Positions 1 to 6,742 of a stretch of DNA of 64,000 bases are shown here, in pieces; the first letter of the stretch is position 1, and every line of letters begins with the position of its first letter. The translations under genes were made by a program, and so were the position numbers. This stretch comes from Cellulomonas gilvus ATCC 13127. GTDB lineage: Bacteria; Actinomycetota; Actinomycetes; Actinomycetales; Cellulomonadaceae. Under the pieces are notes generated by a model. The model was not told the DNA's origin. It did no database searches and worked only from the letters and a program-made list of their open reading frames with translations. Location of the stretch: positions 3,162,001 through 3,226,000 of the forward strand of contig NC_015671.1 in NCBI RefSeq assembly GCF_000218545.1, given 5' to 3'.

Positions 1-1376
1 TCGGCCACGAACGGATGCCGCAAGTTCAGAACGAGCGCGAGTTTGTCGCCAGCCGGGAACCCGACGTGCACGAGCGGCTCGCTTGGGTGACTGTCATCGA
101 CGAGGCCCAGCGACATCGTCGGGAAGTTCGTATTACCGAAGGTAATGGGGATCAGGTCCCCACCGAGGCCATCGAGCAAGTCACTGACGAGCTCGCTCTC
201 GGCCTCGTCCGCGGCCGGAACGATGCCGGCTTCGACGATCGTTATCTCGGCGCCGAGTTCGTCGTTGTCCTCCAGCTCCTCACGTGTCTGTTCGACGACG
301 GATTCAGCGGCTGCGCGACTGAGCGCGGGCCTGACGTCCGATCGTCGGGACTCGCGCGCCTTGCTGATGTAGTCGGAACAGACATCCTTCAGCGCCTCGA
401 GGAGTTCGTGCTCGTCGGCGCCGGACCAGTCGATGGCGTCCTTGGTGTGGCTGACGCGCCATGCGTCAAAGTCGAGCTCACCGACCAGCCGCTGAGCCTG
501 GAACGAGTTGGGAGAGCCGAAGATCTCCCAAGGCTTCCATCCGTTCGGTGGCCCGCCCTGGATCAGCCGGTCGCGCCTGAAGAGGTGGAAGCCAGCGTCG
601 GCGGCCTTGCCTCGTGCGAGCAGGCCGATCCAGCCACCAACCGGCTTGCCGCCGATGGTGATGTCGATCTCGCGTCGCCACTCGATGGTCTCGTCACCAA
701 CCTGCTCGGTGAGCAACTCTGGCTCCACCCACTCCAGGCGTTCCCCATTGAACGTGATGACGACCCGACCGTCGAGCAGATCGCGTCGGTAGATCGACGC
801 GATCTCTCTCTTGATCTTGCCAAGAGTCCGGCCAACGAACACGCGGTCATACTCAAGGAGGCCCTCGACCTGCACACGCGTGTAGTGCTGCGCTGGATCG
901 CGGCCGTCGACAGTCCGGATCGCCAGCGAGGTCGGCTTGTCGGCCTTGAGCTGCGCTACGTCCACCACCGCCGAGTACTCGACCGTCTCGCCGAGTCGCT
1001 TACTAATGACACGCCAGCGCGGGCCCAGCCAGCATGCCGCCGTTTTAAGGCCCATCCCGAACTCCGACCGACCGCTGGTGTCTGCCGGTGGCTTCGCAAG
1101 CTGGAGAGCACGGCTGAACTCATCGAGGTTCATACCCATGGCGTTGTCCACGACGTCGAGCGTTCCCGCGTCACGATCGTAGAAGAGGTCGACGCACAGG
1201 ACCGTCGGCTGGCCGGCGGCCTCGTCGATCGCCGCGCGGTGTGCCGCAAAGTTCTGAGTCGCGTTATCCACGAACTCGGCGATGGCGAACCACGGCCGGT
1301 ACGACAGCCGACGGTACGTCCCATATATGTCGCTGTCCGGGCGGATGTCGACTGTGGGTGATGCGATGTCAGTCAT
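1..1376 (-). CDS. GHKL (Hsp90/MutL-like) ATPase, partial
   Basis: The gene is read leftwards from ATG at 1376 and runs off the window, so the C-terminus is missing. The N-terminal third has the Bergerat ATP-binding motifs: an N box (EFVDNATQNF, residues 34-43), a G1 box (DVVDNAMGM, 74-82) and a G2 box (SEFGMGLKTA, 104-113). This is the HATPase_c_3 type seen in MutL, Hsp90 and MORC proteins, which close like a clamp on ATP. Its start overlaps the stop of the upstream PD-(D/E)XK gene by ATGA, making it the last visible gene of an operon of Vsr, helicase, nuclease-like protein and ATPase. Prokaryotic MORC-type ATPases are known from restriction-modification clusters with helicases and Vsr-like nucleases, and the role in restriction is inferred from that. 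Base composition looks less GC-rich than the housekeeping genes. Confidence 0.85.
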   Translation of the reverse strand, partial: MTDIASPTVDIRPDSDIYGTYRRLSYRPWFAIAEFVDNATQNFAAHRAAIDEAAGQPTVLCVDLFYDRDAGTLDVVDNAMGMNLDEFSRALQLAKPPADTSGRSEFGMGLKTAACWLGPRWRVISKRLGETVEYSAVVDVAQLKADKPTSLAIRTVDGRDPAQHYTRVQVEGLLEYDRVFVGRTLGKIKREIASIYRRDLLDGRVVITFNGERLEWVEPELLTEQVGDETIEWRREIDITIGGKPVGGWIGLLARGKAADAGFHLFRRDRLIQGGPPNGWKPWEIFGSPNSFQAQRLVGELDFDAWRVSHTKDAIDWSGADEHELLEALKDVCSDYISKARESRRSDVRPALSRAAAESVVEQTREELEDNDELGAEITIVEAGIVPAADEAESELVSDLLDGLGGDLIPITFGNTNFPTMSLGLVDDSHPSEPLVHVGFPAGDKLALVLNLRHPFVA

Positions 1377-2170
1377 CCGAGCACCTCTCCATTCAGCAGT
1401 TCGTAAAGGGCTTGGGCGGGATCAATCGGGCGGATGACCAATGGCCTTCCTTGGACTTGGACGGCGCCTTTTGGCAGGTAGATCGCACGCGCCGTGGTGA
1501 GATCGAACACTCGTGTCGGATACATCGTCTGGCCAACACGCAGGCTGAAGTCCTTAATGTTCGGGAAACCGCGGGGCAATGTCCCACGCTGCCGACCGCC
1601 AAGGCGCTCAGGCGCGAGTCGGAGTAAGTACTCGACGCCAGAGGGTCCTCGCTTCTCCATCAGGCTGGAGGGCACGCGCCGCCACTCAATCGCGTATGAG
1701 CCGCTGCCCGATCTGTACGGGGTTCCGACCGCCAGTTCGAAGCCGAAGTCTCGGCACGCTATGCGGAGCGACTCGCTGAGGTCGTCTGCGACGCAGAGCA
1801 GGGTCGGGGGCTCCTCGCGGAGAAGGCGCTCGATGTCGGACGGCGCGAGCGAGGGAAACGCGGCACTCAGGCCCCGCAGAAGGTGTGTGTCGTAGTACGC
1901 GGCCTCCAGTGCTTCGAACTGGCCGCGAAAGTGCGACTCAGGGTGGCTTGCGAGTTCAACCTCGACCACGCACCACCGCGAGCAGTCCTTCGAGATGAGC
2001 GCAATGTCAGGCCTCACGCGTCCCGCCGGACCGTCAAGGAGTGGCTTCCAGTCGGCCCAGAGCCAGCGTTCCGACAGCCGCTGCACGAAGCGCGGCACGA
2101 GTGCCTCGAACTCCCCTTCTCGTAGGCGGATCGGATAGAAGGCTTCGGTCTCTGTCGCGAATGTGGTCAC
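1373..2170 (-). CDS. PD-(D/E)XK nuclease-like protein of R-M cluster
   Basis: This is a 265-residue protein starting with GTG at 2170, overlapping the helicase stop by GTGA. Near residues 52-74 it has RPDIALI followed by VVEVELA. The spacing matches a PD-(D/E)XK nuclease core (D55, E70), but the usual lysine is replaced by glutamate (E72). It is therefore either a variant active site or an inactive fold. The rest matches no domain I recognise. Its place between a helicase and a GHKL ATPase suggests a DNA-binding or cleaving subunit of the same restriction complex. The fold is inferred from motif spacing only. Confidence 0.6.
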   Translation of the reverse strand: MTTFATETEAFYPIRLREGEFEALVPRFVQRLSERWLWADWKPLLDGPAGRVRPDIALISKDCSRWCVVEVELASHPESHFRGQFEALEAAYYDTHLLRGLSAAFPSLAPSDIERLLREEPPTLLCVADDLSESLRIACRDFGFELAVGTPYRSGSGSYAIEWRRVPSSLMEKRGPSGVEYLLRLAPERLGGRQRGTLPRGFPNIKDFSLRVGQTMYPTRVFDLTTARAIYLPKGAVQVQGRPLVIRPIDPAQALYELLNGEVLG

Positions 2171-3342
2171 CTGAAACTCACCTCAAACCACGTCACGTCC
2201 GCTAGCCCTTCGAGTCGGCGCTCTTCCGCCGCAAGGCGGTCACGCTCGGTTTGGGTTGCGAAGATGGTGGCCACCTCGGCGACTGTCTTGCCAGGACTTG
2301 GGCGCAGGAGCCGGCCCAGTCGCTGGACTCGCTGGCGAGTGCTCGCAGAAGAGGCGCACACAAGCCCAAAAGTGGCGTTCGGGACGTCGAGCCCTTCGTC
2401 AAGCGCTCTGCACGATACGAGAACGTCGGCCTGTCCTGTCCGAAACAAGAGCAGGCTCCTCAGGGACTGCGCTGGCGACATCTGGGAGTGGTAGGTGGCG
2501 ACTCGATGCCCCGCGTCCATGAGGCGTCCAGCGATCTCCTCCGCCGCGGCGACCTTCTCGTGGAAGACCAATGAGCGCTCGCCCAGGTGTCGCGACATGA
2601 TCGCGACTGCCGCAGGTATGCGCGCGCGCGCGCCCTGAGTCACTCGCGATCGCGCGACAAGTCCTCGCCTAATCGCCTCGCTGTTCGCAATCTCGTCCGC
2701 GCTAAGGGCGGCGATCCGCTTCGTGAGCCGTGTGTACTGGTCTTCTTCGCTTGGAGTGAGCGGCACGGAGTAGTTCGTCAGCCGGAAGGGCGCCAGGACG
2801 CCGTCGGACGCCGCGTCGGCATAGCCGTACTCGTAGAAGACTGGTCCAATCGCCGGCTCAACGAACTCCTCGAACCACTGGTCGTACTCGCGGCTGGGCG
2901 TGGCTGAGAGCCCGAGGCTTGCGGACCACTCGGCGTCGATCGCCGTGCGGTTCGAAGGAGAGGCGTAGCGGTGGCACTCATCGGCGACGATCATCCATCG
3001 ACCGCTGGCTGTGAGCCTCTGGGTCGCTACCCGTGCGGTATTGACGGTCGCAACGTGGAATGTTGCCACGTGGTCCGAGACTCGCCCATCGCGATGAACC
3101 GCGAGGTCGCTGCGGCCGATGGTGCCGTCCGCCTGCATCACAGTCAGCCACTGGTCAACTAGCGCCAGCGTCGGGACCACGATCAGGACGCGGATTGCGG
3201 GGTCTGCCGTTCGGGCGACCGACATGCAGGCAAGCGCGAAGCGGGTCTTCCCCGCCCCCGTCACGACGCTCGCTACGCCTCGACGCCTTGTGAGCCACTT
3301 GGCCAGGGCGTCTTCCTGCCATCTGCGGAGCGGTGTCGCCAT
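2167..3342 (-). CDS. SF2 helicase (DECH box) of R-M cluster
   Basis: Superfamily 2 helicase of about 391 residues. It shows Walker A VVTGAGKT near residues 26-33, Walker B/motif II ADECH, motif III LSATPS, and a C-terminal RecA domain ending in the motif VI-like QRLGRLLR. I chose ATG 3342 because the core (LRRWQEDAL, a Q-motif-like start) follows at once; the open frame extends further upstream but without similarity to helicases. The overall length is close to XPB/RAD25-like bacterial helicases without added nuclease domains. It is followed with a 4-base overlap by the PD-(D/E)XK-like gene. The likely role is ATP-driven DNA translocation or remodelling in restriction. Confidence 0.85.
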   Translation of the reverse strand: MATPLRRWQEDALAKWLTRRRGVASVVTGAGKTRFALACMSVARTADPAIRVLIVVPTLALVDQWLTVMQADGTIGRSDLAVHRDGRVSDHVATFHVATVNTARVATQRLTASGRWMIVADECHRYASPSNRTAIDAEWSASLGLSATPSREYDQWFEEFVEPAIGPVFYEYGYADAASDGVLAPFRLTNYSVPLTPSEEDQYTRLTKRIAALSADEIANSEAIRRGLVARSRVTQGARARIPAAVAIMSRHLGERSLVFHEKVAAAEEIAGRLMDAGHRVATYHSQMSPAQSLRSLLLFRTGQADVLVSCRALDEGLDVPNATFGLVCASSASTRQRVQRLGRLLRPSPGKTVAEVATIFATQTERDRLAAEERRLEGLADVTWFEVSFR

Positions 3343-3471
3343 CGGTGATCGGACGCCCCTCCGTGTGTGGTCGCAGTTCAGGCTAGTCGTCGCCGACGCC
3401 GCGCGTGTCCAATACGGCGGCCGGACTGTGGGGCGAGGACCGTCCACGGACGCGCCGGCCTGAGTGATCGA

Positions 3472-3909
3472 CTACCGCCTGCCCCGGAGAACAGCGGCAA
3501 CCGAGCCGGCGGCACCCCGAGGGTCATCGTGCTCCCAGATGCGCACCACCAGCCAGCCATCCGCTTCCAGCCAGTGCGTGGTGTCCTCGTCGCGCGCCTG
3601 GTTCGCCGCCAGCTTGGCGACCCACCACGCCGCGTTGGACCTCGGTTGGGTTCCGTGCGCCGGGCACCCGTGCCAGAAGCAGCCGTCGATGAAGACAGCG
3701 ACCTTGGCGCGCGTGAAGGCGATGTCGATCGTTCGCCTCCTCTGCCCGGGCACCGGGTGGTGCACGCGATACCGGTACCCCGCAGCGTGGAGGACACGGC
3801 GAACCGCGAGCTCCGCCTCGTTGTCCTTGCGTCGCAGCCGGCTCATCCGTCGCGACACCGACGCATCCGCCGCACCAGGGTGGGCGGGGACGTGGAACGT
3901 CGGGGTCAC
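3472..3909 (-). CDS. vsr: Very-short-patch (Vsr) mismatch endonuclease
   Basis: Vsr-family nickase. It has the N-terminal signature SRRMSRLRRKDNEAEL, the catalytic aspartate in TIDIAF, the metal/zinc region IDGCFWHGCPAH, and the C-terminal WLVVRIWEHD helix. Vsr cleaves next to T:G mismatches made by deamination of 5-methylcytosine, so it commonly travels with a C5-methyltransferase, here the divergent gene at 4021. Two starts are possible. GTG 3909 (used) gives an N-terminus of typical length; ATG 3945 adds 12 residues. Neither has a clear Shine-Dalgarno sequence. About 110-130 bases separate it from the divergent methyltransferase and from the helicase downstream. Confidence 0.9.
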   Translation of the reverse strand: MTPTFHVPAHPGAADASVSRRMSRLRRKDNEAELAVRRVLHAAGYRYRVHHPVPGQRRRTIDIAFTRAKVAVFIDGCFWHGCPAHGTQPRSNAAWWVAKLAANQARDEDTTHWLEADGWLVVRIWEHDDPRGAAGSVAAVLRGRR

Positions 3910-4020
3910 CAGCCCATGCTGGCCCGCGTGCCTCAGCGCCCGCATCCGGGCGGTGACCGACACGCGCGGCGACACGCGGTGGAGCTTGTGCAGCTCGAAC
4001 GGGAGTTCTAAGCTTCGTGC

Positions 4021-5391
4021 ATGCCCACCGAGCCCGCGTTCCGCTTCGTCGATCTGTTCGCCGGAATCGGAGGGTTCGCGGCCGCCCTGACCGCGTTCGG
4101 CGGCAAGGGCGTGTACTCGGTCGAGATCGACCGGGCCGCCGCGAAGGTCTACGAGCTCAACTGGGGCCACAGCCCGCTCGGTGACATCACGCAGGACGCG
4201 ACCGACTCCGTCATGAACGTGCCTGCCCACGACGTGCTCGCCGCCGGGTTCCCGTGCCAGCCCTTCTCGAAGTCGGGCGCGCAGCGAGGGATGGACGAGA
4301 CGCGCGGCACGCTGTACTGGAACATCCTCAACATCGTCCAGGCGCACCATCCGTCGGTCGTGCTCCTCGAGAACGTGCGCAACCTCGCCGGGCCGCGCCA
4401 CCGGCACGAGTGGCAGGTCATCGTCGAGACGTTGCGCGACGAGGGGTACCGCCTCTCCGAGACTCCTGCCGTCTTCTCTCCGCACCAGATCCCGCCAGAG
4501 CACGGGGGCCGCCCTCAGGTTCGCGAGCGCGTCTTCATCACCGCGACCTACGACCCCGACGGCATCGGTTCCGCGATCGCGGCCGAGCCGGTCGTCTCGC
4601 CTCGTACCCGCGTCGGCGGCTTCGACCCGAGCACCGAGTGGTCGCTCGACGACTTCCTCGACGAGGACCATCACGTGCGAGGTTGCGACCTCTCGGTCGC
4701 GGAGAAGCTGTGGATCGACGCCTGGGACGACTTCGTCCAGCTGATGTGGGAGCAGCGCGAGGGCCGCCGCCTGCCGGGCTTCCCGCTGTGGGCGGACGCC
4801 TGGCCGACGACGGCGGCGAAGGCGGCCGAGCTGGCGGAACTGATCCGCGCCGAGGAGACCGCCTCGTGGAAGCGGGACTTCCTGGTCAAGAACGCCGCGT
4901 TCTACGACGCTCATCGAAGGGTCATCGACCAGTGGGCCGAGAAGTGGGGGGTGTTCACCGACGCCTTCCCGCCCTCCCGCCGCAAGCTGGAGTGGCAGGC
5001 GCAGGACACCCCGCGTCTGTGGGACACCGTGATGCACCTCCGACCCTCGGGCATCCGTGCCAAGCGGCCCACGTACCTCCCCGCGCTCGTCGCTATCACC
5101 CAGACCTCGATCATCGGACCGCGTGAGCGTCGCCTGAGCCCTCGCGAGGCCGCACGCCTCCAGGGACTGCCTGACGAGTTCACGTTCGGCACCCAGCCGG
5201 CGTCCGCGACCTACCGGCAGCTCGGGAACGGTGTCAACGTCGGGGCTGTCTGGAACGTGCTGAAGGCCCACGTGGCGCGCGACGAGGAGATCCTCAAGCG
5301 CACCGCCGCAGGGCAGCGGATCGTCCAGGCGGTCCTCGACGCCCCGAGCTCACCCGACCAGCGGCTCCGGGAGATCCTCGCCACCCGCTAG
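4021..5391 (+). CDS. DNA (cytosine-5)-methyltransferase
   Basis: C5-cytosine methyltransferase of 456 residues. It carries the ordered motifs: I FAGIGG (13-18), IV PCQPFS with the catalytic cysteine C79, VI ENVRNL near residue 117, VIII QVRERVF, and X QLGNGVNVG near the end. The variable target-recognition region lies between motifs VIII and IX, roughly residues 190-350. It transfers methyl groups from SAM to host DNA, and the endonuclease gene starts only 10 bases downstream. The recognition sequence cannot be read from the protein. No strong ribosome binding site precedes ATG 4021. Confidence 0.95.
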   Translation: MPTEPAFRFVDLFAGIGGFAAALTAFGGKGVYSVEIDRAAAKVYELNWGHSPLGDITQDATDSVMNVPAHDVLAAGFPCQPFSKSGAQRGMDETRGTLYWNILNIVQAHHPSVVLLENVRNLAGPRHRHEWQVIVETLRDEGYRLSETPAVFSPHQIPPEHGGRPQVRERVFITATYDPDGIGSAIAAEPVVSPRTRVGGFDPSTEWSLDDFLDEDHHVRGCDLSVAEKLWIDAWDDFVQLMWEQREGRRLPGFPLWADAWPTTAAKAAELAELIRAEETASWKRDFLVKNAAFYDAHRRVIDQWAEKWGVFTDAFPPSRRKLEWQAQDTPRLWDTVMHLRPSGIRAKRPTYLPALVAITQTSIIGPRERRLSPREAARLQGLPDEFTFGTQPASATYRQLGNGVNVGAVWNVLKAHVARDEEILKRTAAGQRIVQAVLDAPSSPDQRLREILATR

Positions 5392-5401
5392 CCTCCGGCT
5401 G

Positions 5402-6742
5402 ATGGTCCCGACCGAGCCGTTCCTGCCCGCCGCGTCCAAGGCGGAGGCCGTCGCGCGGATCTACGCTCTCGCGGGGGTCACACCGGAAGCGCTGGGCCCG
5501 GGCAGCACCGAGAAGAAATCGGTCCTGGTCGAGCTCGCGAGGCGGCTGGACCTGCCGGTTGACTCGCAAGCGGCCAAGCCGGCGCTCGGTGCCCAGGTCG
5601 CGGGCGCGCTCGGCGCCGACTGGCCGCCGGCTGCGTGGTCGAGCGGCTCGACCATCACCTTGTACGGCCTGAACACGCTGCTCGAGGCGGCGACGTTCGA
5701 GCTCCACCGGCGGGCGTTCTTGTCCACACCCGAGGACTTGCTCGCGGGGCAGCTCGAGTTCGGCGGCTTCCAGCACGCGCGGAGCAAGCTCGAGGCGGTC
5801 AACCGCATCTCCGCGCTCACGCGGAGCGGCCCACAGGTCCTCGGCCCGGGCAGCAAGGAGCGCAAGTCGGTCCTCGTCGATCTCGCAGCCGGGCTCGGGC
5901 TCGACGTGGACACCGCGCAGAACAAGGTCGCTCTCGGCGCCGCCATCGCCGCGCGGCTCGGCGCTCGATGGCACGATCGCCACTGGTCCACGGGCCACAC
6001 CATCACCCTCGACGGGCTCAACGCGCTCCTCGCGGCGGCCGAGAGACGCCTGGGGCTGCTGGGGCAGAGCGCCGCCGACGCGTTCTCCACACCGGCCGAC
6101 GAGGCCGCGGCGCTGCTGGTGGCGCTGGCCGATGCCATCGACACAGCGTGGGACGGCCGCACCTGTGTCGAGGCCATGCGCGACGCCGAGTTCCGCCACT
6201 GGCGACAGACCGAGTGGACGGGCTGGTACTTCGAGTACATCGGCATCGCCGCGCTGGTCAACGCCTACGGGGGCGGGCCACGACGGGTTCGCAACACCTC
6301 GTTCGACTACGCCCTGCACTCGACCTGGGATCTCAAGGCGCACAGCGTCCACCGCGACGACGCGGCGATCCTCAACGACCTCGACGCGATCGAGGCAGGG
6401 CTCGCCGAGCCTGGCGGGCTGGGGTTCATCGTGCTCAGCGGCGTCGCCGACTACTCGCACAGCGCAGCGTTCGACGCATGGCATCGTGAGCAGCGGGGGG
6501 CAGGGCCGGCGCACGACCGGTCGCGCGCGCTCAAGTCAGGATTCGTGCCGCAGCGCCTCGACGCGTTCCACCTGCCGACCATGGAGTCGCTCGAGTCCGC
6601 GAGGCTCCGGGGCGAGTTCACCGTGATGGCGCAGGGGCGTCAGCCGGACGGCAGCCCCCGCAAGCCGAAGCTCAAGATCCGGCTCGACGTCGCGCGTTCG
6701 TCAGGATCGCTCGTAGCCACGCGCACCCTCAGGACCGGTTGA
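5402..6742 (+). CDS. Putative type II restriction endonuclease with duplicated N-terminal module
   Basis: This 446-residue protein begins 10 bases after the methyltransferase. Two copies of one roughly 85-residue module form the N-terminal half (about 13-97 and 127-215). Each has a conserved core around LGPGS(T/K)E(K/R)KSVLV(E/D)L and ends in TITL(Y/D)GLN(T/A)LL. A candidate PD-(D/E)XK active site follows: F301-D302-Y, then W309-D310-L-K312. The organisation suggests DNA-recognition modules in front of a nuclease domain, and the methyltransferase neighbour supports an R-M enzyme. I do not recognise the exact family. The catalytic residues are proposed from spacing only. Confidence 0.7.
   Translation: MVPTEPFLPAASKAEAVARIYALAGVTPEALGPGSTEKKSVLVELARRLDLPVDSQAAKPALGAQVAGALGADWPPAAWSSGSTITLYGLNTLLEAATFELHRRAFLSTPEDLLAGQLEFGGFQHARSKLEAVNRISALTRSGPQVLGPGSKERKSVLVDLAAGLGLDVDTAQNKVALGAAIAARLGARWHDRHWSTGHTITLDGLNALLAAAERRLGLLGQSAADAFSTPADEAAALLVALADAIDTAWDGRTCVEAMRDAEFRHWRQTEWTGWYFEYIGIAALVNAYGGGPRRVRNTSFDYALHSTWDLKAHSVHRDDAAILNDLDAIEAGLAEPGGLGFIVLSGVADYSHSAAFDAWHREQRGAGPAHDRSRALKSGFVPQRLDAFHLPTMESLESARLRGEFTVMAQGRQPDGSPRKPKLKIRLDVARSSGSLVATRTLRTG

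Follow-up and report, generated by a model that had tools for sequence, protein, structure and literature searches.

The first 6,742 bases of a 64,000-nucleotide stretch of the Cellulomonas gilvus ATCC 13127 genome (NC_015671.1, positions 3,162,001 to 3,226,000; this whole stretch is called the window below) carry six adjacent genes, which probably constitute a type II restriction-modification pair, accompanied by Vsr, joined to a mobile ATP-dependent restriction engine. The pair consists of a C5-cytosine methylase (Dcm) and a predicted restriction endonuclease (REase). By engine we mean the three-gene set of an XPB-like helicase, a PD-(D/E)XK-fold nuclease and a MORC ATPase. All six genes named by an earlier, sequence-only reading of this DNA were found at the positions it gave (Table 1): four exceed the cut-offs of curated profiles (HATPase_c_3, ResIII/Helicase_C, TIGR00632 and the C5-methylase profile), while the nuclease and the REase were recognised through their homologues.

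Table 1. Genes of the cluster, with positions in the window and the evidence for each assignment
Feature	Position	Strand	Evidence
MORC-type GHKL ATPase, 511 amino acids (aa)	1..1376 (whole gene L003:5841-7376)	-	HATPase_c_3, invariant residues, S5 motif
PD-(D/E)XK-fold protein, 265 aa, E-D-ExE pattern plus H and Q	1373..2170	-	invariant residues, AlphaFold model, Foldseek
XPB/RAD25-like SF2 helicase core, 391 aa from ATG 3342	2167..3342	-	ResIII, Helicase_C, RAD25/XPB chains, motifs
Vsr mismatch endonuclease, ~145 aa	3472..3909	-	TIGR00632; start by comparison
C5-cytosine DNA methyltransferase (Dcm), 456 aa	4021..5391	+	PF00145, DruM2 model, GFPCQPFS and ENV motifs
Predicted type II REase, 446 aa: two ~95-aa N-terminal repeats and C-terminal FDY...WDxK region	5402..6742	+	homologue alignment, Dcm neighbourhood, weak REase_II

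The leftward genes run in the order Vsr, helicase, nuclease-like protein, ATPase, and the methylase and REase are read rightward. The tight leftward operon with 4-base overlaps that had been described holds for the helicase/nuclease and nuclease/ATPase junctions only. The Vsr stop lies 24 bases ahead of the helicase open reading frame, which opens at GTG 3447, or about 130 bases ahead of ATG 3342, the likelier helicase start.

The window holds 458 residues of the ATPase, whose gene ends 160 bases beyond the left edge. Profile searches bear out its description as a GHKL ATPase: HATPase_c_3 matches at 53.5 bits (cut-off 25), the GHKL ATP-binding motifs are intact, and E34, D37, N38, D77, G81, G107 and G109 (numbering includes the initial Met) are invariant among 24 homologues. 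At residue 262 it carries GFHLFRRDRLI, an instance of the S5 motif GhXhhpXXRhl, which Iyer et al. (2008, PMC2292703) give as uniting the MORCs. The motif is present in 83 of the 84 family members, the exception being a 224-aa fragment from a disrupted gene, and in 0.33% of shuffled sequences. A PDB profile search with the ATPase returned Hsp90-type chains only.

The helicase, likewise as proposed, is a bare SF2 core with ResIII and Helicase_C both above cut-off and with the motifs GAGKT, DECH, SATP and QRVQRLGRL all present. Its closest solved chains are of RAD25/XPB (E 1.8e-31), which we take to be archaeal.

The 265-aa protein between them has no family above cut-off in Pfam, PADLOC or NCBIfam, and it is the secondary structure of its model together with its invariant residues that make it nuclease-like, a predicted nuclease of PD-(D/E)XK fold as first suggested. 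E18, D55, W66, E70, E72, H80 and Q84 do not vary among 21 homologues. The AlphaFold model (pLDDT 88.8, pTM 0.64) has the order helix-strand-strand-strand-helix-strand, as in PD-(D/E)XK nucleases. Among the best 50 of 649 Foldseek matches, those with a probability of at least 0.9 are AF1548, SfsA, the R2 protein, Card1 and a Pyrococcus repair endonuclease, all of which we take to be PD-(D/E)XK-fold proteins. These matches are weak (best E 0.006, none below 0.001; TM-scores 0.2-0.4 for this set), and lower ranks of the same 50 include unrelated proteins. The usual Lys of the site is here a Glu (ExE), as it is in BamHI.

In the type II half, Dcm matches PF00145 at 228.4 bits (E 1.9e-67, cut-off 22) with the catalytic motifs GFPCQPFS and ENV intact. 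Vsr matches TIGR00632 at 108.9 bits (cut-off 97.85) on the piece 3472-3870, and comparison with the Vsr of locus L148 indicates that it probably starts at GTG 3909. No curated family was found for the REase, and PADLOC REase_II matches it weakly (E 0.0098). It is a predicted type II enzyme by virtue of its homologues, most of which adjoin a Dcm gene, and FDY...WDxK is invariant in an alignment of eight of them. A methylase with its catalytic motifs therefore adjoins a predicted endonuclease, the arrangement of a type II system, in agreement with the methylase-REase pair and the separate endonuclease originally proposed. No Pfam family was found for the ~95-aa N-terminal domain, of which the REase has two copies (5402-6100). 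Long proteins encoded near related Dcm genes (L149, L152, L193-L202) begin with the same domain, and GmrSD_N was confirmed in the long protein of L149. This domain may recognise the shared methylation site. In a virus assigned to Methanobacteriales (BK063679.1, L153:2245-4606) a DNA methyltransferase gene is followed by a gene like the C-terminal half of the REase.

How stable is the engine in other genomes? The order helicase-nuclease-ATPase is kept in 18 of the 80 fetched relatives of the ATPase, which is beyond chance, and the three genes are co-inherited. One of the 18, L054, is counted on a nuclease detected by tblastn only. A methylase adjoins every assessable engine, though its kind varies, being of N4/N6 type in 12 of the 17 assessable relatives. 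In loci L013 and L014 the engine proteins are 65-76% identical, and the C5-methylases share 29% identity along the stretch that can be aligned. The ATPase itself is sparse, found in 1 of 58 relatives (this genome only) and in 3 of 396 genomes of a phylum sample (this genome included).

Several of these loci have additional features. In L086:3617-5383 one 588-aa open frame holds both the Vsr and Dcm matches, a possible fusion. The flavobacterial loci L079:4111-9940 and L080:5689-11518, in which the helicase was not found, have an extra 751-aa protein, GHKL ATPase-like by eye, upstream of the N4/N6-type methylase, nuclease and MORC genes. In L041:6969-7961 and L054:6887-7951 an MTaX1-HNH endonuclease gene lies between methylase and helicase; it is another optional extra nuclease of engine loci.

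The strongest alternative, which we consider unlikely, is that the variable island holds two unrelated defence systems next to each other: a type II pair (Dcm, REase, Vsr) and an engine whose own methylase has been lost and which is inactive or responds to some other cue. The methylase beside every assessable engine favours a joint system; several observations speak for the alternative. First, the type II half is found by itself. Of the 58 relatives, 8 have related Dcm genes (this genome included), and the 8 other Dcm loci, two of them in G416, have no engine genes within the 15-20 kb fetched. REase-like matches were found in 4 of 58 relatives, in 1 of 396 genomes of the phylum sample and in 16 of 297 of an order sample (E <=1e-6; 7 with the full protein or its catalytic part, 9 with the N-terminal domain only). 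The 16 fetched order regions, which were picked by REase matches and are not a random sample of Dcm genes, contain no engine genes; Dcm is present in 15 of them, and the remaining one, L192, ends at a contig edge. The ATPase (E <=1e-20) is in 3 of the 297, and the two occur together only in the present genome; Fisher P is 1.0, a value that with two other ATPase genomes cannot show avoidance. Second, Dcm groups with type II methylases. Third, G+C is unequal, 64-65% over the engine and 69-72% over Dcm-REase (71-78% further right, to 20 kb). Finally, the engine of L010, 78% identical to ours, has a Vsr fragment on its opposite flank. The earlier suggestion that a type II system had gained an ATP-driven module as a second restriction layer is partly supported: the gene content, the motifs and the methylase beside every assessable engine fit it, but the REase-like and Dcm regions fetched from other genomes have no engine genes.

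It is also improbable that the module serves methylation-directed repair or DNA maintenance, in a partnership like that of MutL and Vsr, rather than restriction. Vsr does lie close to the engine in the window, L010, L013 and L086, and Iyer et al. (PMC2292703) draw the parallel of MORCs with MutL, MutH, Vsr and UvrD and allow repair roles. However, 7 of the 8 related Dcm loci pair Vsr with Dcm in the absence of the engine, as expected for any C5-methylase, none of the 12 engine loci whose methylase is of N4/N6 type gave a Vsr match, and the sparse distribution of the ATPase also speaks against such a role. A modification-sensing restriction akin to the phosphorothioate systems (Dnd/Pbe), attacking modified DNA, is very improbable: the top NCBIfam/PADLOC matches of the helicase are indeed the Dnd restriction enzyme (179 bits) and PbeA (237 bits), but the former falls well short of the 600 set as cut-off, DndC has no match in the genome (a weak control, with matches in 5 of 14 control genomes and none over cut-off), and attack on methylated DNA would be suicidal because the engine travels with a methylase.

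If the type II pair and the engine do form one restriction machine, Dcm methylation of host sites would mark self and spare the host. Where incoming DNA has an unmethylated site, the MORC dimer would close there as an ATP-driven clamp and load the helicase, which would open the DNA for the nuclease to cut or nick. The REase would independently cleave unmethylated sites, and Vsr would repair T:G mismatches arising from deaminated 5-methylcytosine. Parallels to this scheme are MutL with MutH, Vsr and UvrD (PMC2292703) and the XPB-Bax1 pair (PMC7293015). The methylase as targeting subunit has a precedent in BREX, where BrxX must bind its site for defence and methylation alike (PMC11842806). More tentatively, the engine may be a plug-in motor that does not itself recognise a target: the docked methylase, C5 or N4/N6, would read the target and trigger clamp loading at an unmethylated site, and exchange of the methylase would re-aim the machine. 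L013 and L014 would then be a natural swap, and in the window the engine would have attached itself anew to a type II pair already in place, so that a single methylation mark would serve two layers of restriction. Eukaryotic MORCs take part in transposon silencing and chromatin condensation, and the biochemistry of bacterial ones is described as poorly understood (PMC8011034). Methylase, helicase, nuclease and MORC form a small set in which to test whether MORC is a DNA clamp that couples the reading of methylation to cleavage driven by a motor. The natural pairing of similar engines with different methylases allows the same for the methylase as targeting subunit, and makes the role of bacterial MORC proteins testable.

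Among described systems, the first-type MORC operons of Iyer et al. (PMC2292703) share with ours the S5-motif MORC, the RAD25/XPB-like SF2 helicase, the C5-methylase and Vsr neighbours and a sporadic distribution. An SF2 helicase is in the same operon in about 70% of their prokaryotic MORC cases, as it is here. In their operons, however, helicase and nuclease are commonly parts of one fusion protein and the methylases are mostly cytosine, rarely adenine, ones, whereas here a separate nuclease-fold gene lies between helicase core and ATPase and N4/N6-type methylases predominate among assessable relatives. The archaeal XPB-Bax1 (PMC7293015) also combines an XPB-like helicase with a restriction-fold nuclease bearing E-D-E residues (E275, D305, E318), but it is a repair machine, unlike the restriction engine proposed here. 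The profile of our nuclease had no sequence match to Bax1 chains, and the fold match is weak (Foldseek rank 41 of the same 50, E 0.51). Type II systems with a V gene have Dcm, REase and Vsr together, as do several related genomes; the window adds the ATP-dependent engine, with Vsr heading its operon. Druantia type II was considered, since DruM2 is the best model match of Dcm (PADLOC, E 7.4e-206), and was rejected: the open reading frame lists show no DruE-sized gene beside Dcm, the whole genome not having been searched for DruE. A DruE gene (1765 aa, 1809 bits) does occur in locus L148 (1811-7108 and 9353-11456); a relative of the window's Dcm (55%) lies 2.2 kb from it, and one of the window's Vsr (72%) is also near. 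The mza system was likewise rejected (MzaB model 15.2 bits, cut-off 850).

To the left of the window lie a tRNA-Ser(gga) gene and then an OLD-like gene (AAA and OLD-like TOPRIM, 628 aa; L003:3276-5281 = G000:C1:3159276-3161281) transcribed towards the ATPase gene; this stretch probably belongs to the same island as the six genes. A remnant like the C-terminus of a tyrosine integrase (L003:5254-5343, minus strand; 53% over 43 aa, E 2e-7) has as its relative an open 406-aa frame adjoining the closely related engine of L010, which hints at how the engine arrived. In G419, of the same genus, L142:8823-12847 carries a 70%-identical Dcm, an anonymous 329-aa gene and Vsr. These lie next to a DinB-like gene, the same one that borders the island of the window, which suggests an exchange hotspot.
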